Shown here one piece after another: positions 13,560 to 62,702 of a stretch of DNA of 64,000 nt. The position numbers and the translations under genes are program-made. The stretch covers positions 331,501 to 395,500 of the forward strand of contig JACYXH010000182.1 of NCBI GenBank assembly GCA_026745465.1. The letters run 5' to 3'. The notes beneath the pieces were generated by a model that worked only from the letters and a program-made list of their open reading frames with translations, did no database searches and had not been told where the DNA came from. Origin of the DNA: Lota lota. Taxonomy: Eukaryota > Chordata > Actinopteri > Gadiformes > Lotidae. How positions within the stretch are numbered: position 1 is the stretch's first letter; every line of letters starts with the position of its first letter.

Positions 13560-14800
13560 CACTATATTGCCAAAAGTTTTGGGACGCCTGCCTTTACATG
13601 CACATGAAGGTTAATTCATTCTTAATCGTAGGGTTTAATATGGAGTCTGCCCACCCTTTGCAGCTACAACAGCTTCAACTCTTCTGGGAAGGCTTTCCAC
13701 AAGGCTTAGGAGTGTGTTTATGGGAATTTTTGACCATTCTTCTTGAACCGCATTTGTGAGGTCAGGCACAGATGTTGGATGAGAAGGCCTGGCTCGCAGT
13801 CTCCGCTCTAATTCATCCCAAAGGTGTTCTATCGGGTTGAGGTCAGGACTCTGTGCAGGCCAGTCAAGTTCCTCCACACCAAACTCGCTCATCCATGTCT
13901 TTATGGACCTTGCTTTGTGCACTAGTGTGCAGTCATGTTGGAATAGGAAGGGGCCATCCTCAAACTGTTCCCACAAAGTTAGGAGCATGAAATTGTCCAA
14001 AATGTCTTGGTATGCTGAAGCATTAACAGTTCCTTTCACTGGAACTAAGGGGCCAAGCCCAAGCCCTAAAAAACAACCCCACACCATAATCCCCCCTCCA
14101 CCAAACCTTACACTTGGCCCAATGCAGTCAGGTAAGTACCGTTCTCCTGGCAACCGCCAAACCCAGACTCGTCCATTGGATTGCCAGACAGAGAAGCATG
14201 ATTCGTCATTCCAGAGAACACGTCTCCACTGCTCTAGTGTCCAGTGGCGGTGTGCTTTACACCACTGCATCCGACGCGTTGCATTGCACTTGGTGATATA
14301 AAGCTTGGATGCAGCTGCTCGGCCATGGAAACCCATTCCATGAAGCTCTCTACGTACTGTTCTTGAGCTAATCTGAAGGCAACACGAAGTTTGGAGGTCT
14401 GTAGCTGTTGACTCTGCAGAAAGTTGGCAACTTCTGCACACTGTGCGCCTCAGCATGCGTTGACCCCGCTCTGTGATTTTACGTGGCCTACCACTTTGTG
14501 GCTGAGTTTCTGTTGTTCCCAATTGCTTCCACTTTATTATAATACCACTAACAGTTGACCGTGGAATATGTAGTAGTGAGGAAATTTCACGAATGGACTT
14601 ATTGCACAGGTGGCATCCTATCACGGTACCACACTTGAATTCACTGAGCTCCTGAGAGCGACCCATTCTTTCACAAATGTTTGTAGAAGCAGTCTGCATG
14701 CCTAAGTGCTTGATTTTATACACCTGTGGCCATGGAAGTGTTTGGAACACCTGAACTCAATGATTCGGAGGGGTGTCCCAATACTTTTGGCAATATAGTG
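13560..14800 (-). mobile_element. Complete Tc1-like transposon (1241 bp)
   Basis: The element is bounded by TA on both sides (13558-13559 and 14801-14802), the Tc1/mariner target duplication. The ends are inverted repeats beginning CACTATATTGCCAAAAGT and continuing TTGGGACG on the left; the right end is its complement with few mismatches. It carries one transposase gene on the minus strand. Intact ends, TA duplication and an open ORF together suggest a relatively young insertion. Confidence 0.93.
13635..14666 (-). CDS. Tc1-like DD34E transposase, apparently intact
   Basis: A 343-residue ORF, the normal size for Tc1-like transposases, that excises and inserts the element by cut and paste. The N-terminal ~110 residues hold the paired helix-turn-helix DNA-binding region, including [16 protein letters not shown] (about 35-50) and the GRPRK motif (about 59-63). 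The catalytic triad is Asp154 (LWNDES), Asp245 (LFQHD) and Glu280 ([11 protein letters not shown]), with 34 residues between the last two, so DD34E. The frame extends 28 codons upstream to 14750, but [10 protein letters not shown] matches the usual start, so 14666 is chosen. No stop or frameshift is visible. Whether it is active cannot be told. The common HDNDPKH-like motif reads HDCTLVHK here. Confidence 0.9.
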
Positions 14801-42992: not shown

Positions 42993-43861
42993 GCACATCC
43001 TGCAAGTATCCACTGAGTTTACCTCTCCAGCTGACTGAGGTAAGCCCGACATAATGCTTTATCATACTTTTAACTACTTAAACTACACAAACATATTTTA
43101 ATACATCAGAGTAATGGAAATCATTATTAGATCATATGTGACTGTCCTTACCACCTATTTTTGTATGGAATTATTCGTTTTATTATGAATAACCCTATTG
43201 TATATGTTTTTTTTTTCAGAAGTATACTTGAATACGTGTCCTGCTAAAACATTTAATATTACTAGTAAATTACATGTGGTATGTAAAGACAGTGGATAGG
43301 ATTAGCAGAGACGTTCAAGTCATTCTATGGTTTAGCATACAACAACAGAAATACAGTTTATTAAGCCCTTAACTAGTTTGTCATGTTGTAGTTGTTCATG
43401 AATAAGGATTATGGCATGACTTTTTTTGCTCTCTGAATGAAGAATATTTAGCAACTGAAGCACAGAAGCACATATGCTGGCTGGAAAAAGGCTGATAGTA
43501 TAATTATTTCATGACTGAATGCAATACAAAGCGCCAGATCAATCATTAGGCTGGTATTAACAACAAGAGAAATTATATTCTAGTGTGAAATCTGGCATAG
43601 CTCTGCATTGATTATAAGTGCAGAAGAAATTACACAACTCTCATTATATCAATTTTAAATACACTATCATGATAACAATTCTATGACACATGATGTTTGT
43701 GCACACGATTCACATGTTTCATGTGTGTTTTTTTCTTCAGGTCCTTTGAATGAATCCCCACCAACTATGTTTAAACATCAATGATGTAATAATGTCTTCC
43801 AGGTTGAAGAAAGTATGACCTAATTTATTAAAACCCTGCCTTACCCTACTCTTGCTTCCCG

Positions 43862-43913
43862 CCCCCCCCCCTCCCTCCCTCCCTCCCTCCCTCCCACCCT
43901 CCCTCCCTCGCAG
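43862..43913 (+). repeat. C/CCCT-rich polypyrimidine tract at the receptor 1 splice acceptor
   Basis: A run of C followed by (CCCT)n with one interruption, ending in CGCAG 4 bp before the ATG. It would serve as the polypyrimidine tract of the 3' splice site. Confidence 0.85.
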
Positions 43914-43917
43914 GTCG

Positions 43918-44901
43918 ATGGAGCCTGAGTTTTGCTACGGGAATGGCTCGTGTGTGAGGACGGTCTACCCCGTCGCCGTCCGCGTCATCCTCTACTTATG
44001 CCTGGGGTCTGCGGTGGTCCTCACGGTGCTGGGTAACCTCTTGGTGATCGTGGCCATTTCTCACTTCAAGCAACTCCACACACCTCCCAACTACCTGACC
44101 CTCTCCCTGGCCATAACCGACCTCCTCCTGGGGGTGCTGGTCATGTTCCCCGGCATGATTCAGTCCGTCGAGACCTGCTGGTACTTCGGGGAGATGTTCT
44201 GCAAGCTCTTCACCAGCTCTGACATCTTGCTGTGTACAGCGTCCATCTTGAACCTGTCCTTTATATCCATCGACCGCTATTATGCCGTGTGCCACCCTCT
44301 GCTCTACCCCCGTAAGATAACAGATAACACCGCATTCATCATGATCCTGGTTACCTGGTGTGTCTCAGCCGTGGTCGGCTTCGGGATGATCTTCCTCAAG
44401 CTGAATTTATTAGGAATTGAGGAGATCTACTATAACAACGTGGCGTGCGAAGGAAGGTGCTTTATGTTACAGAGCGGCGTTTCCATCACCGTCTCATCCA
44501 TTGTCGCCTTCTACATCCCCGGGGTCATCATGCTGTGCATCTACCTGAAGATCTACATGGTGGCCCGGAGACAAGTGCGCATCATAGGCCTACAGAACAC
44601 CACCTCCTCCAAGGTGGACAAGCACCAGAGGAAAGCCACCAAAACGCTGGCCATCATCATGGGCGTGTTTCTGTCCTTCTGGGCGCCGTTTTTCATCTGT
44701 AACATCATCGACCCCTACATCGGCTACTCCGTTCCGCCCATCCTGTTTGAAACACTCGTGTGGCTGGGGTATCTGAATTCCACAGTCAACCCGTTGGTTA
44801 ACGCCTTCTTCTACAGTTGGTTCAGGAAGGCATTTCAAATTATCGTTTCCGGTAGCATCTTTCGGTCAGACATGTCGGACACAAAACTGTTTGCAGAGTG
44901 A
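43918..44901 (+). CDS. TAAR-like amine receptor 1 (class A GPCR)
   Basis: Complete 327-residue single-coding-exon receptor of the trace amine-associated family, expected in the plasma membrane (in fish, mostly of olfactory neurons), signalling through Gs/Golf. Visible landmarks are Asn40 (1.50), LSLAITD with Asp68 (2.50), Cys95 (3.25), Asp102 (3.32, the amine contact), DRY 119-121, Trp147 (4.50), ECL2 cysteines 177 and 181, Pro201 (5.50), FWAP with Trp255 (6.48), Tyr285 (7.43), and the TAAR TM7 signature NSTVNPLVNAFFYSWF (287-302). One N-glycosylation site is NGS at 9-11. Oddity: residue 295 (7.53) is Asn instead of the NPxxY Tyr. There is no Asp at 5.42 (Ser193), unlike diamine-sensing teleost TAARs. 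The frame is open upstream to 43852 through the pyrimidine repeat; the ATG at 43918 follows a CAG acceptor and matches the other copies. The exact TAAR subfamily is not resolved. Confidence 0.93.
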   Translation: MEPEFCYGNGSCVRTVYPVAVRVILYLCLGSAVVLTVLGNLLVIVAISHFKQLHTPPNYLTLSLAITDLLLGVLVMFPGMIQSVETCWYFGEMFCKLFTSSDILLCTASILNLSFISIDRYYAVCHPLLYPRKITDNTAFIMILVTWCVSAVVGFGMIFLKLNLLGIEEIYYNNVACEGRCFMLQSGVSITVSSIVAFYIPGVIMLCIYLKIYMVARRQVRIIGLQNTTSSKVDKHQRKATKTLAIIMGVFLSFWAPFFICNIIDPYIGYSVPPILFETLVWLGYLNSTVNPLVNAFFYSWFRKAFQIIVSGSIFRSDMSDTKLFAE

Positions 44902-49513: not shown

Positions 49514-50877
49514 GCACATCCTGCTAGTAGCCACTGAGTTTACCTCTCCAGCTGACTGAGGTAAGCCACACATAATGCTTTATCACACTTTAAACTATTT
49601 GCTCTCCAAGTTAAATTGAATACATAAGAGTAATGGAAATGGTTATTAAATAATATGTCTATCTTTACTAAATATTTGGGGAAGTTCCTTAAATCTGACG
49701 AGTTCTAGGTAATGTATTGATATTATTTGTGTGTAACATCTTTATTTATTTTTTACCAGCTTAATTATTTTTGTATTAAGAAGAACCCTATTTAATCAGA
49801 TTTTCTTTTCAGAAGTACATTTCAATGGACGTCCTGCTAAAAAAATCATATTACTGGCAATTAAAAAAATGCAGGGACTGTAAAGACAGTGGATAGGATA
49901 AGCAGAGACAAGTCAGTTATTCTATGGTTTAACACACAACAATAGAAATACAGTTCATTAAACTCATTAATTGTTCATAATCAATGATTATTATAATACT
50001 TTTTTTATTCCTCAGTCAGAGAGCAAAAAAGTCATCCAACAATACTTAAATATAAACAACTACAACATAAATATAGTTAACTAAGCTCTTATGTAGTGAT
50101 CTTGTAGTTGTTTATGAATAAGGATTGTGGCATGGCATTCTTTACTCTCTGAATGAGGAATATTTAGCAATTTAAGTAAGCACCTATGTTGGGTTTGAAC
50201 AGCCGGAAAATTGCTTGTTGTCGTGACAACATTACAATACGATGTTCCAGGTATTATGAACAGTAAATCCTTGCTGTCATTTTTCATTGTAATTTATCAC
50301 TGAACAATGGCAAAAACAAATACATTGTATTATTTCTAATAGTATATATGGTTAAGTCTATGAAAGCTTTTCCTAGTAAAATTGTTGAAGAGTGTTCATT
50401 GTACACAATGATTGCATCACAGAATGGATGGTCTACGAAGAGATCCTGCTGTACCACTTGTTGACTCATCAACATGATTCATCATTTAACAAGAGTGCCA
50501 TAAGGTGGAAATGATGCAAGCTTAGGTGTAGGCCTGTATTTAGACATTAGGTTGTATTGTCTATTGTAAACGCTGGCAAAGTTGTCAAATCTTCCATTGA
50601 TTATGATGGCAGACGAAATAACACAACTCTCATAATATCATTATTAAATGCACTATCATCATCTGAATTGTATACCGGTTCTATGACACATGATGTTTCT
50701 GCATTTGATTCAAATGTCTCATATATGTTTTGACTCAGATCCTTTGCATATGGGTGCCCAAACCCCTCAATCCTCCCCCCGCTATGTTTGTACATAAACA
50801 ATGTAATAATGTCTCTTTCAGGTAGCGGAAAGAATGACCCCATTTTCTAAAACCCTGTCTCTCCCCCACCCTTCCCT

Positions 50878-50936
50878 TCCCTCCCTCCCTCCCTCCCTCC
50901 CTCCCTCCCTCCCTCCCTCCCTCCCTCCCTCCCTCC
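50878..50936 (+). repeat. (CCCT)n tract, ~15 units, at the receptor 2 splice acceptor
   Basis: 59 nt of uninterrupted tetranucleotide repeat directly before ATCGCAG and the start codon. It is the polypyrimidine stretch of the inferred 3' splice site. Confidence 0.92.
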
Positions 50937-50947
50937 ATCGCAGGCCG

Positions 50948-51931
50948 ATGGAGCCTGAGTTTTGCTACGGGAATGGCTCGTGTGTGAGGACGGTCTACCC
51001 CGTCGCTGTCCGCGTCATCCTCTATTTGTGCCTGGGGTCTGCGGTGGTCCTCACGGTGCTGGGTAACCTCTTGGTGATCGTGGCCATTGGTCACTTCAAG
51101 CAACTCCACACGCCCACCAACTACCTGACCCTCTCCCTGGCCATAACCGACCACCTACTGGGGGTGCTGGTCATGTTCCCCGGCATGATTCGCGCCGTTG
51201 AGACCTGCTGGTACTTCGGGGAGATGTTCTGCAAGCTCTTCATCTGCTCTGACATCTTGCTGTGCACCGCGTCCATCTTGAACCTGTCCTTTATATCCAT
51301 CGACCGCTATTATGCCGTGTGCCACCCTCTGCTCTACCCCCGTAAGATAACGGTTCACACGGCAGTCATCATGATCCTGGTTACCTGGTCTGTCTCGGCT
51401 GTTGTCGGCTTTGGGATGATCTTCATCAAGCTGAATGTATTAGGAATCGAGGAGTTCTATAATATTAATGTGCCGTGTGAAGGAGGGTGCTTTATGTTTC
51501 AGAGTGTGATGTCCAGCACCGTGTCATCCATGATCTCCTTCTACATCCCCGGGGTCAACATGTTGGGCATCTACCTGAAGATCTACATGGTGGCCCGGAG
51601 ACAAGTGCACATCATAGGCCTACAGAACACCAGCTCCTCCAAGGTGGACAAGCACCAGAGGAAAGCCACCAAAACACTGGCCATCATCATGGGCGTGTTT
51701 CTGTCCTTCTGGACGCCGTTTTTCATCTGTAACATCATCGACCCCTACATCGGCTACTCCGTTCCGCCTGCCTTGTTCGCCACACTCCGGTGGCTGGGGT
51801 ATCTGAATTCTACCGTCAACCCACTGGTGTACGCCTTCTTCTACAGTTGGTTCAGGAAGGCATTTCAAATTATCATTTGCGGTAAAATCTTTCGGTCTGA
51901 CATGTCGGACACTAAATTGTTCTTAGAGTGA
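50948..51931 (+). CDS. TAAR-like amine receptor 2 (class A GPCR)
   Basis: Complete 327-residue receptor, the most divergent of the three. It keeps Asp68 (2.50), Asp102 (3.32), DRY 119-121, Trp147, Pro201, Trp255, Tyr285 and a canonical TM7 signature NSTVNPLVYAFFYSWF with Tyr295 (7.53). Distinctive changes cluster near the presumed ligand pocket and ECL2: His69 after Asp2.50, ICSD instead of TSSD before Asp3.32, FYNINVPCEGGC in ECL2, PGVNMLGIY in TM5, and PALFATLRW before TM7. The frame is open upstream to 50834 through the CCCT tract. MEPEFCYGNG at 50948 is chosen because it follows the CAG acceptor and aligns with receptor 3, where no longer start exists. The function is as for receptor 1, but the altered pocket suggests a different amine preference (inference). 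Confidence 0.93.
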   Translation: MEPEFCYGNGSCVRTVYPVAVRVILYLCLGSAVVLTVLGNLLVIVAIGHFKQLHTPTNYLTLSLAITDHLLGVLVMFPGMIRAVETCWYFGEMFCKLFICSDILLCTASILNLSFISIDRYYAVCHPLLYPRKITVHTAVIMILVTWSVSAVVGFGMIFIKLNVLGIEEFYNINVPCEGGCFMFQSVMSSTVSSMISFYIPGVNMLGIYLKIYMVARRQVHIIGLQNTSSSKVDKHQRKATKTLAIIMGVFLSFWTPFFICNIIDPYIGYSVPPALFATLRWLGYLNSTVNPLVYAFFYSWFRKAFQIIICGKIFRSDMSDTKLFLE

Positions 51932-55171: not shown

Positions 55172-55715
55172 TGTCATGTGACCCTCTGCCACCACCTAGT
55201 GGCGCCGGCCATCACTACACCATGTGCTTCTGTTTATCTCCTGCCGTTAATTTACCACGTGCAATCCGGTCTACACTCCTGCCAACAATTCACCAATCAC
55301 CCCCTCTGTACTTAAGCACTGGCTCCCCACAGAGCCAGTGCCAGTTCGTTAGTTGTATACCTCTCATGGTAACTACGTCCCCGCCACTTCTTGTTTTCGG
55401 GTCCCACTCCCGTTCTTGTTCGTTACGGGTTCCGCTCCCGTTCATGTTCCCGCTCTTGTTCCCGTTCCTGTTCCCGCTCTCGTTCCTGTTCCTCGTTCCT
55501 GCCTGCCTGCCTTCCTTGTTGCTGAACCTCGCCTGTCCGACCACCCGCCTGCCTACGTCCTTCTGCCTGCCTGACTCCCCGCCTGCCTACTGCCTGCTGG
55601 ACTACCCGCCTGCCTTGCCCTTGCCTGTACCTGAGTGACTAATAAATCCCGTTCTGAACCTGCTCTCTTCTGGTTTCCGTGTTTTGCGTTTGGGTCCTAG
55701 TCCGTAACCTTAACA
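55172..55715 (+). repeat. 5' LTR of the chromodomain element
   Basis: It starts TGTCATGTGACC and ends CCGTAACCTTAACA. Polyadenylation signal AATAAA is near 55641. It is almost identical to the 3' LTR except near its start, where sequence and length differ. Confidence 0.88.
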
Positions 55716-55731
55716 GTACGAACTGGCCAAG

Positions 55732-57177
55732 ATGGACCCAGCAGACATGGATTCTTCTACATGGAAGTCTCTTGTCGCGTCTGCCTCAAGCGAGCGGATT
55801 CCGTGGGATACGTCGGCTATCCTCCAGATGCTTGAGCGCAAACTCCGCTCGGTTTCTCTCTCTTCCTTCCCCGCTGCAACCGCAGCCTCGTGGCCACCAG
55901 CCCGCGCCACAGCCGCTGTCTCGTGGTCACCAGTTCCGCTGCAACCGTGGTCTCATGGCTCCAAGTTCCCGCAGCCGTTGTCTCTTGTCTCCAAGCCTCA
56001 ACCCCCACAGCTGTGGACTCCGGACCCCAAGCCCCAGCGAACTCCTGGCCGCAAGTGCCGGCTACCGGTTCAGCTGCCCTCCCCCGGGAAAAGGCCCAAG
56101 TCCCAGCTGCCTCCTGGCCCTGAGCCCCAGCGCCAGCAGCAGTTGCCTCTTGGTCCCAAGCCCCAGCTGTATCCTGGCCCTGAGCCCCAGCGCCAGCCCC
56201 AGCTGTCTCCTGGTCCCGAGTCCAAGCCCCAGTTGTCTCCTGGTCCCGAGTCCAAGCCCCAGTTGTCTCCTGGTCCCGAGTCCAAGCCCCAGTTGTCTCC
56301 TGGTCCCGAGTCCAAGCCCCAGTTGTCTCCTGGTCCCGAGTCCAAGCCCCAGTTGTCTCCTGGTCCCGAGTCCAAGCCCCAGTTGTCTCCTGGTCCCGAG
56401 TCCAAGCCCCAGTTGTCTCAAGGTCCCGAGTCCAAGCCCCAGTTGTCTCCAGGTCCCGAGTTCCAGCCCCAGTGTCCTCCTGAGCCCCAGCAGCAGTTCC
56501 CTTCTGGCCCTGCGCCCCAGCGCCAGCAGCAGTTGCCTCCTGGTCCTAAGTCCCAGTTGTTTCCAGGTCCCGAGTCCCAGCCCCAGTGTCCTCCTGGTCC
56601 TAAGCCCCAGTTGTTTCCAGGTCCCGAGTCCCAGCCACAGTGTCCTCCTGATCCTGAGCCCCAGCAGCAGTTGCCTCCTGGCCCTGAGCCCCAGCAGCAG
56701 TTGCTTCCTGGTCCTAAGCCCCAGTTGTCTCCAGGTCCTGAGTCCCAGCCCCAGTATCCTCCTGATCCTGAGCCCCAGCAGCAGTTGCCTCCTGGCCCTG
56801 AGCCCCAGTGTCCTCCTGACCCTGAGCCCCAGCAGCTGCCTCCTAGTTCCAAGCCCCAACGGCCTCCTGGTCGCAAGCGCCGGTTACCGGTCCCACGGTT
56901 ATCCGCCGGGAAAAAGTCCCAGTCCCTTAGTCCGCTGTCACCTCCATCCCCGACTCCGCCTCTTCCCCGGGTGATTGACAGCATTCCGGCGTACTCAGTC
57001 AGACGCCTCCTCGATGTGCGTCGTCGCGGCCGACGACATCGATATCCGGTGGACTGGGAGGGCTACGGACCTGAGGAGTGGTCCGGGGTGCTCCTAGTTC
57101 CTGGATCACTTCCTAACCCGCGATTCTCACCGCCAGCACCCTCCCTCGCCGTGCGTCCGCCTGGAGGCGTCCGTTGA
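55732..57177 (+). CDS. Gag-like / Pro-Gln repeat / chromodomain fusion protein (481 aa)
   Basis: One uninterrupted ORF fills the interior of the LTR element and starts 17 nt after the 5' LTR, where gypsy gag normally starts. Residues 1-45 ([20 protein letters not shown] and onward) look like a gag N terminus. Residues ~80-400 are Pro/Gln/Ser-rich low complexity, including eight decapeptides of the type [10 protein letters not shown] at about 163-243 and looser [12 protein letters not shown] repeats after that. Residues ~421-462 form a chromodomain of the kind found at the C terminus of chromovirus integrase: [13 protein letters not shown], then [14 protein letters not shown], with possible cage residues Tyr421, Trp442 and Tyr445. 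The usual Trp further on is Gly452. Everything between gag and chromodomain in a full gypsy element is missing. It may be a chromatin-binding, gag-derived protein or just an open remnant; the function is unknown. Confidence 0.8.
56221..56460 (+). repeat. Eight 30-bp tandem repeats in the fusion ORF
   Basis: Each 30-bp unit begins TCCAAGCCCCAGTTGTCTCC. The first six are identical and the last two have small changes. 30 bp keeps the frame, encoding ten residues per unit. Slippage here would change protein length without breaking it. Confidence 0.95.
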
Positions 57178-57188
57178 GGGGGGGGTAC

Positions 57189-57744
57189 TGTTACACCCTC
57201 TCCCGTGTTTCTGTCCATTTCCGCCATCTAGTGGCACCCAGCCTCATTACACCATGTGCTTCTGTTTATCTCCTGTCCTTAATTTACCACGTGCACTCCG
57301 GTCTACACTCCTGCCAACAATTCACCAATCACCCCCTCTGTACTTAAGCACTGGCTCCCCACAGAGCCAGTGCCAGTTCGTTAGTTGTATACCTCTCATG
57401 GTAACTACGTCCCCGCCACTTCTTGTTTTCGGGTCCCACTCCCGTTCTTGTTCGTTACGGGTTCCGCTCCCGTTCATGTTCCCGCTCTTGTTCCCGTTCC
57501 TGTTCCCGCTCTCGTTCCTGTTCCTTGTTCCTTGCCTGCCTTCCTTGTTGCTGAACCTCGCCTGTCCGACCACCCGCCTGCCTACGTCCTTCTGCCTGCC
57601 TGACTCCCCGCCTGCCTACTGCCTGCTGGACTACCCGCCTGCCTTGCCCTTGCCTGTACCTGAGTGACTAATAAATCCCGTTCTGAACCTGCTCTCTTCT
57701 GGTTTCCGTGTTTTGCGTTTGGGTCCTAGTCCGTAACCTTAACA
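57189..57744 (+). repeat. 3' LTR of the chromodomain element
   Basis: It starts TGTTACACCC after the polypurine tract and ends CCTTAACA. AATAAA is near 57672. It is followed directly by L2 sequence. Confidence 0.88.
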
Positions 57745-61718: not shown

Positions 61719-62702
61719 ATGGAGCCTGAGTTCTGCTACGGGAATGGCTCGTGTGTGAGGACGGTCTACCCCGTCGCTGTCCGCGTCATCCTCTACTTGT
61801 GCCTGGGGTCTGCGGTGGTCCTCACGGTGCTGGGTAACCTCTTGGTGATCGTGGCCATTTCTCACTTCAAGCAACTCCACACGCCCACCAACTACCTGAC
61901 CCTCTCCCTGGCCATAACCGACCTCCTACTGGGGGTGCTGGTCATGTTCCCGGGCATGATTCGCGCCATCGAGACCTGCTGGTACTTCGGGGAGATGTTC
62001 TGCAAGCTCTTCACCAGCTCTGACATCTTGCTGTGTACAGCGTCCATCTTGAACCTGTCCTTTATATCCATCGACCGCTATTATGCCGTGTGCCACCCTC
62101 TGCTCTACCCCCGTAAGATAACAGATAACACCGCATTCATCATGATCCTGGTTACCTGGTGTGTCTCGGCCGTGGTCGGCTTCGGTATTATCTTCCTCGA
62201 GCTGAATATATTAGGAATCGAGGAGTTCTTCTATAACAACATTGCATGTGAAGGAGGGTGCGTTTTGTTTCAGAGTGGGGTGTCCAGCACTGTGTCTTCC
62301 ATTGTCGCCTTCTACATCCCCGGGGTCATCATGCTGTGCATCTACCTGAAGATCTACATAGTGGCCCGGAGACAAGTGCGTGTCATAGGCCTACAGAACA
62401 CCAGCTCCTCCAAGGTGGACAAGCACCAGAGGAAAGCCACCAAAACGCTGGCCATCATCATGGGCGTGTTTCTGTCCTTCTGGGCGCCGTTTTTCATCTG
62501 TAACATCATCGACCCCTACATCGGCTACTCCGTTCCGCCCATCCTGTTTGAAACACTCGTGTGGCTGGGGTATCTGAATTCCACAGTCAACCCGTTGGTT
62601 AACGCCTTCTTCTACAGTTGGTTCAGGAAGGCATTTCAAATTATCGTTTCCGGTAGCATCTTTCGGTCAGACATGTCGGACACAAAACTGTTCGCAGAGT
62701 GA
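61719..62702 (+). CDS. TAAR-like amine receptor 3 (class A GPCR)
   Basis: Complete 327-residue receptor. All landmarks of receptor 1 are present: Asn40, Asp68, Cys95, Asp102 (3.32), DRY 119-121, Trp147, Cys177/Cys181 in ECL2, Pro201, Trp255, Tyr285 and NSTVNPLVNAFFYSWF. Like receptor 1 it has Asn295 at the NPxxY tyrosine position. From about residue 232 to the end it matches receptor 1 exactly, while ECL2/TM5 (ELNILGIEEF, ACEGGCVLFQ) differs from both others. The acceptor before the ATG has no long CCCT run, only a short CT-rich stretch ending CCCCCCCATCGCAG, and no in-frame ATG exists further upstream. This supports the same start in all three genes. Confidence 0.93.
   Translation: MEPEFCYGNGSCVRTVYPVAVRVILYLCLGSAVVLTVLGNLLVIVAISHFKQLHTPTNYLTLSLAITDLLLGVLVMFPGMIRAIETCWYFGEMFCKLFTSSDILLCTASILNLSFISIDRYYAVCHPLLYPRKITDNTAFIMILVTWCVSAVVGFGIIFLELNILGIEEFFYNNIACEGGCVLFQSGVSSTVSSIVAFYIPGVIMLCIYLKIYIVARRQVRVIGLQNTSSSKVDKHQRKATKTLAIIMGVFLSFWAPFFICNIIDPYIGYSVPPILFETLVWLGYLNSTVNPLVNAFFYSWFRKAFQIIVSGSIFRSDMSDTKLFAE

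Follow-up and report, generated by a model that had tools for sequence, protein, structure and literature searches.

An enzyme-less LTR element of Lota lota with a long open frame and half a chromodomain: a candidate passenger of self-priming chromoviruses

The analysed stretch of DNA, referred to below as the window, comprises 64,000 nt of the Lota lota genome (assembly GCA_026745465.1, contig JACYXH010000182.1, positions 331,501 to 395,500). Three similar single-exon GPCR reading frames lie on its forward strand (43852-44901, 50834-51931, and 61719-62702), and the two that were scanned score 190 bits for 7tm_1; judged by eye, they are presumably trace amine-associated receptors of the teleost type. 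A Tc1-type transposase frame of 371 aa occupies 13635-14750 on the reverse strand (HTH_Tnp_Tc3_2, 46 bits; DDE_3, 42.5 bits). The LTR element described here is located between the second and the third GPCR frames, and its features are as follows.

55172..55715, forward strand: 5' LTR, TGTCA...TAACA (read from the sequence and by LTR comparison)
55309..55315, forward strand: TATA-like TACTTAA, 31 nt (start to start) ahead of the self-primer sequence
55340..55349, forward strand: GCCAGTTCGT, predicted RNA 5' end and self-primer, complementary to the primer-binding site
55366..55638, forward strand: upstream ORF in the leader, 90 codons
55716..55731, forward strand: primer-binding site GTACGAACTGGCCAAG, immediately 3' of the 5' LTR
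55732..57177, forward strand: main ORF, 481 codons
55732..55746, forward strand: MDPAD, the sole gag-like residues of the window copy
55747..55866, forward strand: N-terminal segment, present at 25 places in the genome
56044..56103, forward strand: first copy of the basic linker module, PGRKCRLPV..., ahead of the array (read directly)
56104..56850, forward strand: Pro/Gln-rich decapeptide array in 30-nt units, some spacings being 24 nt
56866..56925, forward strand: second copy of the basic linker module, PGRKRRLPV..., ahead of the chromodomain (read directly and aligned)
56971..57072, forward strand: N-terminal half of a chromodomain ([10 protein letters not shown]...WEGYGP)
57079..57174, forward strand: ORF tail outside the native chromodomain frame, with a helix remnant from near 57101 in frame +1
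57176..57186, forward strand: polypurine tract
57189..57744, forward strand: 3' LTR, TGTTA...TAACA (read from the sequence and by LTR comparison)

The ORF that a preliminary description placed at 55732-57177, with 481 codons and an ATG start, was recovered at exactly these coordinates. That description also holds with regard to the near-identical LTRs (97.2% identity over 527 nt), the loss of the pol enzymes (a Pfam search found no pol domain in the window ORF), and the decapeptide repeats, which form approximately 20 tandem units of 30 nt. Its gag-chromodomain fusion stands as an in-frame ORF, but gag is reduced to five residues and the chromodomain to one half. The internal region between the two LTRs spans 55716-57188. 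The start codon of the ORF has A at −3 and G at +4, and the upstream ORF of 90 codons in the leader counts against simple translation of the main ORF. Within the window copy the first ~40 nt differ between the LTRs (55172-55215 versus 57189-57240), the 5' one resembling the LTR of an autonomous-like element (L061); these unlike starts suggest recombination between elements, as read from their sequences. No target-site duplication was seen at the window copy, and the search for its pre-insertion site returned no match.

Gag homology was established through the genome's own gag frames instead of Pfam. The window ORF shows no Pfam gag domain, and the N-termini of four other copies (80 residues each) gave two matches below the cut-off, both to unrelated families. 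Older-type copies begin with ~46 gag-like residues, and a query blended from the gag starts of two of them matches gag frames of ~352 aa at 59% identity. On the contigs that carry these frames the integrase core is found 3.2 kb and the chromodomain 4.07 kb downstream of the gag start. Their pol frames reach 1163 aa, and one contig has both a gag frame of 352 aa and a pol frame of 1163 aa. Integrase and chromodomain share one phase in all 5 contigs compared. Among autonomous-length pairings, 1 of 10 has its gag start in phase with its chromodomain. Of one chromodomain relative with a 1132-aa frame, a 1.2-kb 3' end was fetched; the LTR of this relative is 77% identical to that of the window family over its first 173 nt, and the left edge of the fetched piece is too close to the chromodomain to show where the deletion starts. 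As for the 40 residues that follow MDPAD in the window copy, all 25 candidates for them were scored, 17 of which are in fetched loci, and none coincides with any of the 150 scored gag-start matches.

Copies are numerous: the exact 28-nt sequence that runs from the LTR end through the primer site into the gag start was found 123 times genome-wide, and the reversed control not once; a search for further copies with the same fusion, as proposed in the preliminary description, thus found many. DNA similarity adds 102 matching stretches from the 40 scored of 798 candidate places. A further 40 loci (L021-L060) were read, of which 32 yielded elements, 7 had no LTR pair by the criteria used, and one (L033) had its pair dropped. 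Of 41 LTR-LTR intervals, 6 were set aside (L033 and five spacers that separate neighbouring or tandem copies), and 5 of the remaining 35 candidate elements represented the same insertion or an identical core, which leaves 30 two-LTR elements, 29 of them with a chromodomain remnant. The pairs L039/L045 and L023/L060 were kept, though each shares one flank at 80-85% identity. A 5-bp target duplication surrounds 8 of 8 flank-distinct elements that have both outer ends located by motif outside tandem arrays. At the family level, the two LTRs, primer site, polypurine tract, and target duplication of an LTR retrotransposon are therefore all present. LTR identity within elements reaches 100%, while the median distance between the 3' LTRs of different copies is 0.153 (406 pairs), which indicates many old lineages with recent insertions and not a single burst. 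Recent insertions without enzymes of their own, in a genome that also contains autonomous relatives, are what a trans-mobilised non-autonomous family would show.

In 22 of the 30 elements, the primer site and a stretch of the 5' LTR are complementary over 9-12 nt; in the other 8 no exact match of at least 8 nt was found there. The self-primer site is situated 30 nt past a TATA-like box in 17 of 30 elements (no box was found in 8). Rare primer forms are matched in the LTR in several elements: CTGGC is accompanied by GCCAG in the window copy and L026, and CAAGC by GCTTG in L024, while in L028 one base pair is added between primer site and LTR. Three elements (L021_4603, L030, and L054) have a rare primer-site form, yet the common LTR form, and L056 combines the common primer-site form with the rare LTR form; an exact LTR match is seen in only 3 of 6 elements with the rare primer-site form. 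Self-priming is the common feature of the Tf1/sushi group, according to the accessible part of PMC10085805, and the complementarity of the primer site to the predicted RNA 5' end agrees with it. The integrase with a C-terminal chromodomain that marks this group is missing, as the window ORF has no integrase and a Chromo match of 16.2 bits to half of the model. To judge from these sequence features, the family is a derivative of the Tf1/sushi chromovirus lineage and not an autonomous member of it.

Among the 29 read elements with a chromodomain remnant, gag start and chromodomain are in phase in 21, and 18 are open. Coordinates alone were used for further copies, combining all 150 chromodomain matches, 100 listed junctions, 150 gag-start matches, and 25 window-type N-termini. 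This gave 33 short enzyme-less pairings with 27 in phase. Of these, 21 had not been read as sequence (17 in phase, 12 open), and C335, the figures of which equal those of C745, was dropped. The resulting 20 coordinate-only copies, counted without a filter for independent flanks, include 16 in phase and 11 open. In total, 37 of 49 copies are in phase and 29 of 49 are open. The ORF is thus not broken at random in other copies; random breakage would have spoken against the preliminary description. The frames of the 18 open elements stop between −192 and +230 nt relative to the start of the 3' LTR. Accumulation of stops since insertion alone would leave an expected 15.8 of 29 elements stop-free, compared with fewer than 1 of 29 at the divergence between copies; the 18 observed fit the former. 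Open and broken elements do not differ in LTR identity (medians 98.0 and 98.3, respectively). Open frames in the array are also cheap, since register 1 of the same array is nearly stop-free as well: over 29 copies, registers 0, 1, and 2 contain 30, 51, and 444 stops, respectively, and in L059 and L036 the array is open in the other register. At least one upstream ATG is present in 22 of 27 leaders.

Within the array, C>T changes that create a stop amount to 2 of 856, in comparison with 38 of 1302 for synonymous transitions (p = 7e-7) and 116 of 2089 for missense C>T (p = 2e-15), although these p values are too small because array units are mutually related. With every distinct unit counted a single time across all elements, the figures are 2/486 stop-making, 14/353 synonymous, and 77/1210 missense C>T changes. 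The 12 elements not scored as open show the same tendency, with 2/367 stop-making versus 19/527 synonymous changes (p = 0.003). In the array, nonsense is thus removed and missense is tolerated. Many codons of frame 0 are a single step away from a stop, with 57.7 stops expected per substitution per site. Conservation of frame-0 amino acids over the whole ORF was considered as well, and an uncontrolled protein-guided alignment gave a ratio of 0.73; register controls and neutral simulation fail to support it for the array. In the 18 open copies, with one simulation, array pN/pS is 0.76 against a neutral 0.87 for frame 0, and 0.66 against a neutral 0.84 for register 1. Frame 0 is therefore no better than register 1, and the amino acids are not specially kept. 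The N-terminal part, in the same copies and also with one simulation, has a pN/pS of 1.10 (neutral 0.87) and shows no clear constraint. As for the linker and half chromodomain, N/S is 1.21 on internal branches (neutral 2.06), with 0 stops where 4.2 are expected, and 1.83 on terminal branches (neutral 2.18), with 2.3 stops where 5.0 are expected. The low N/S near the chromodomain could be an inheritance from autonomous lineages.

The chromodomain itself is incomplete. In the window copy Pfam reports 13.0 bits for the whole ORF and 16.2 bits for its tail (cut-off 25.1), covering positions 1-30 of the 53 in the model, whereas an autonomous-like relative scores 42.2 bits over positions 1-52. Past WEGYGP, 8 of 29 elements have the helix remnant in its native open frame (in two of these, L034 and L040, the far tail alone is native), 16 have it in a shifted frame, and 5 have it stopped. 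In 17 of 29 elements the place of the third strand is taken by a T-rich tract of varying length, with four or more T in a row, which sets the frame of the ORF end; L056, L054, and L038 provide examples of it. At this place a deletion is found instead in L030, L041, and the window copy. The W..GY core is missing in 6 of 29. The whole domain is in frame in L053 alone, and in L047 it is whole except for an internal stop, neither being joined to an open gag start. No complete chromodomain was found among the 18 open copies read. The aromatic residues of the first half sit, as we assume, at histone-cage positions, and the half chromodomain has a pN/pS of 0.51 versus 0.92 under neutrality (18 open copies). 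A match at the level of half a domain should nevertheless not be taken as chromatin targeting; to judge by the domain sequences, tethering by this chromodomain is unlikely.

On balance, we lean towards the family being a non-autonomous, self-priming chromovirus derivative that is mobilised in trans, with source copies selected to stay translatable and with half a chromodomain that is a non-tethering leftover. The 3.8-4.1 kb that separate gag start from chromodomain in the autonomous relatives would have been lost almost entirely, and the deletion junction would have expanded into a minisatellite coding for Pro and Gln. Transcription would start ~30 nt past the TATA-like box, the RNA would prime itself, and proteins of full chromoviruses would package, copy, and integrate it. 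Piggybacking on full chromoviruses, suggested in the preliminary description, is indeed likely given the self-priming site, the polypurine tract, the 5-bp duplications, and the autonomous-type elements in the same genome. Selection would keep source copies translatable all the way between the gag start and the vicinity of the 3' LTR. The likeliest reason would be that, with a premature stop, the 3' UTR becomes long and the RNA vulnerable to decay; a need for a loose, disordered protein appears a less likely one. Chromatin tethering is probably not what the frame is for.

The explanations differ mainly in what keeps the frame open. The excess of missense over nonsense in the array is what a decoy frame would produce, in which selection purges stops and not missense because a ribosome that runs to the 3' LTR guards the genomic RNA against nonsense-mediated decay; in that case the T-rich tract might be a protein-binding shield near the stops. 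We regard this mechanism as possible and put it forward tentatively. The same depletion of nonsense without that of missense could also arise if the protein itself mattered, namely a disordered Pro/Gln-rich chain that includes a basic linker and in which nothing but length and overall composition counts, acting for instance in entry into the particle or the nucleus. The in-frame fusion in 37 of 49 copies, the A at −3 and G at +4, and an N/S that falls below neutrality on internal branches of the linker and half chromodomain agree with such a protein, but its N- and C-termini are free to change and shift frame. We consider it less likely than protection from decay, though a serious alternative. 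Upstream ATGs in 22 of 27 leaders count against both the protein and the protection from decay.

It is less probable still that the long ORFs are a neutral by-product of an array that is stop-poor by composition and whose unit turnover keeps multiples of three. The near absence of stops in register 1 and the arrays of L059 and L036, open in the other register, agree with neutrality. However, frame 0 is rich in near-stop codons, and yet stops occur there several times less often than synonymous changes of the same type; the non-repetitive linker also has no internal-branch stops where 4.2 are expected. As for a chromodomain protein that tethers to chromatin and either guides chromoviruses or competes with them, the domain's first half is in frame in many copies and has the low pN/pS given above, and in the relative L018 the domain is more complete (completeness was scored in 18 of the 29 open copies, the other 11 being known by coordinates). 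Against it stand the 18 of 18 open copies read with an incomplete domain, the frame that scatters over all phases past the domain middle, so that the helix remnant keeps its native open frame in only 8 of 29, the T-rich tract at the third strand in 17 of 29, the 6 elements without the W..GY core, and the internal stop of L047. Tethering, which the preliminary description had put forward, was rejected on these grounds and seems highly improbable. The same description saw a possible step toward host use of the chromodomain, which finds no support: a domesticated host gene would be a single conserved locus under purifying selection, whereas here the copies are dispersed LTR-flanked insertions that decay singly, with about the number of stop-free elements that the LTR clock predicts.

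In comparison with known systems, the family, here taken as a trans-mobilised chromovirus derivative, differs from each of its nearest counterparts. The noaCRM elements of hop, which are centromeric retrotransposons, lack reverse transcriptase, RNase H, and integrase out of six domains, and like the window family they are recently active chromovirus derivatives that share the primer site with autonomous relatives, as far as the available text of PMC12371157 describes them. By subtraction from that list, they keep GAG, protease, and chromodomain in a plant host (PMC12371157), whereas the Lota lota family is self-priming and has a minisatellite, half a chromodomain, and no capsid or protease; in the window ORF, Pfam detects neither a gag domain nor a protease, and of the chromodomain one half. 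TR-GAG elements are LTR elements without POL that possibly use the machinery of complete elements, and to judge by their name they keep GAG (PMC5818461, in its accessible part); the Lota lota family has a short gag start only, with no Pfam gag domain in the window ORF or the four other N-termini. Since it falls outside both definitions, it represents a variant of non-autonomous LTR elements distinct from both. With Tf1/sushi chromoviruses it has in common self-priming, chromodomain ancestry, and the 5-bp target duplication, as given for the revised Tcry1-1 in the available portion of PMC10085805, but it is non-autonomous and has no enzymes and an incomplete chromodomain. Among the matches listed in the open-access literature, no vertebrate element of such a kind appears. 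Exposure to decay through a long 3' UTR is described for Rous sarcoma virus RNA (PMC4764554; PMC5580461, both as far as accessible). There, a cis RNA element after the gag stop is involved (PMC5580461), in contrast to the ORF proposed to run to the 3' LTR in Lota lota, and the parallel is an analogy only.

LTR elements that lack enzymes are commonly regarded either as non-coding or as helpers that encode gag. In this family, many diverged lineages keep an apparently useless frame open while its amino acids drift. The family thereby separates the need to be translatable from the need to encode a given protein and offers a natural system for testing whether RNA decay shapes mobile elements.

Tandem arrangements were also observed at a larger scale than the decapeptide. 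In L017 and L018, the half chromodomain and basic linker are repeated in tandem as a second repeat unit. The locus L023 (C98) has the structure LTR-core-LTR-core-LTR, in which two identical cores share LTRs and CCTTT is present at both outer ends.
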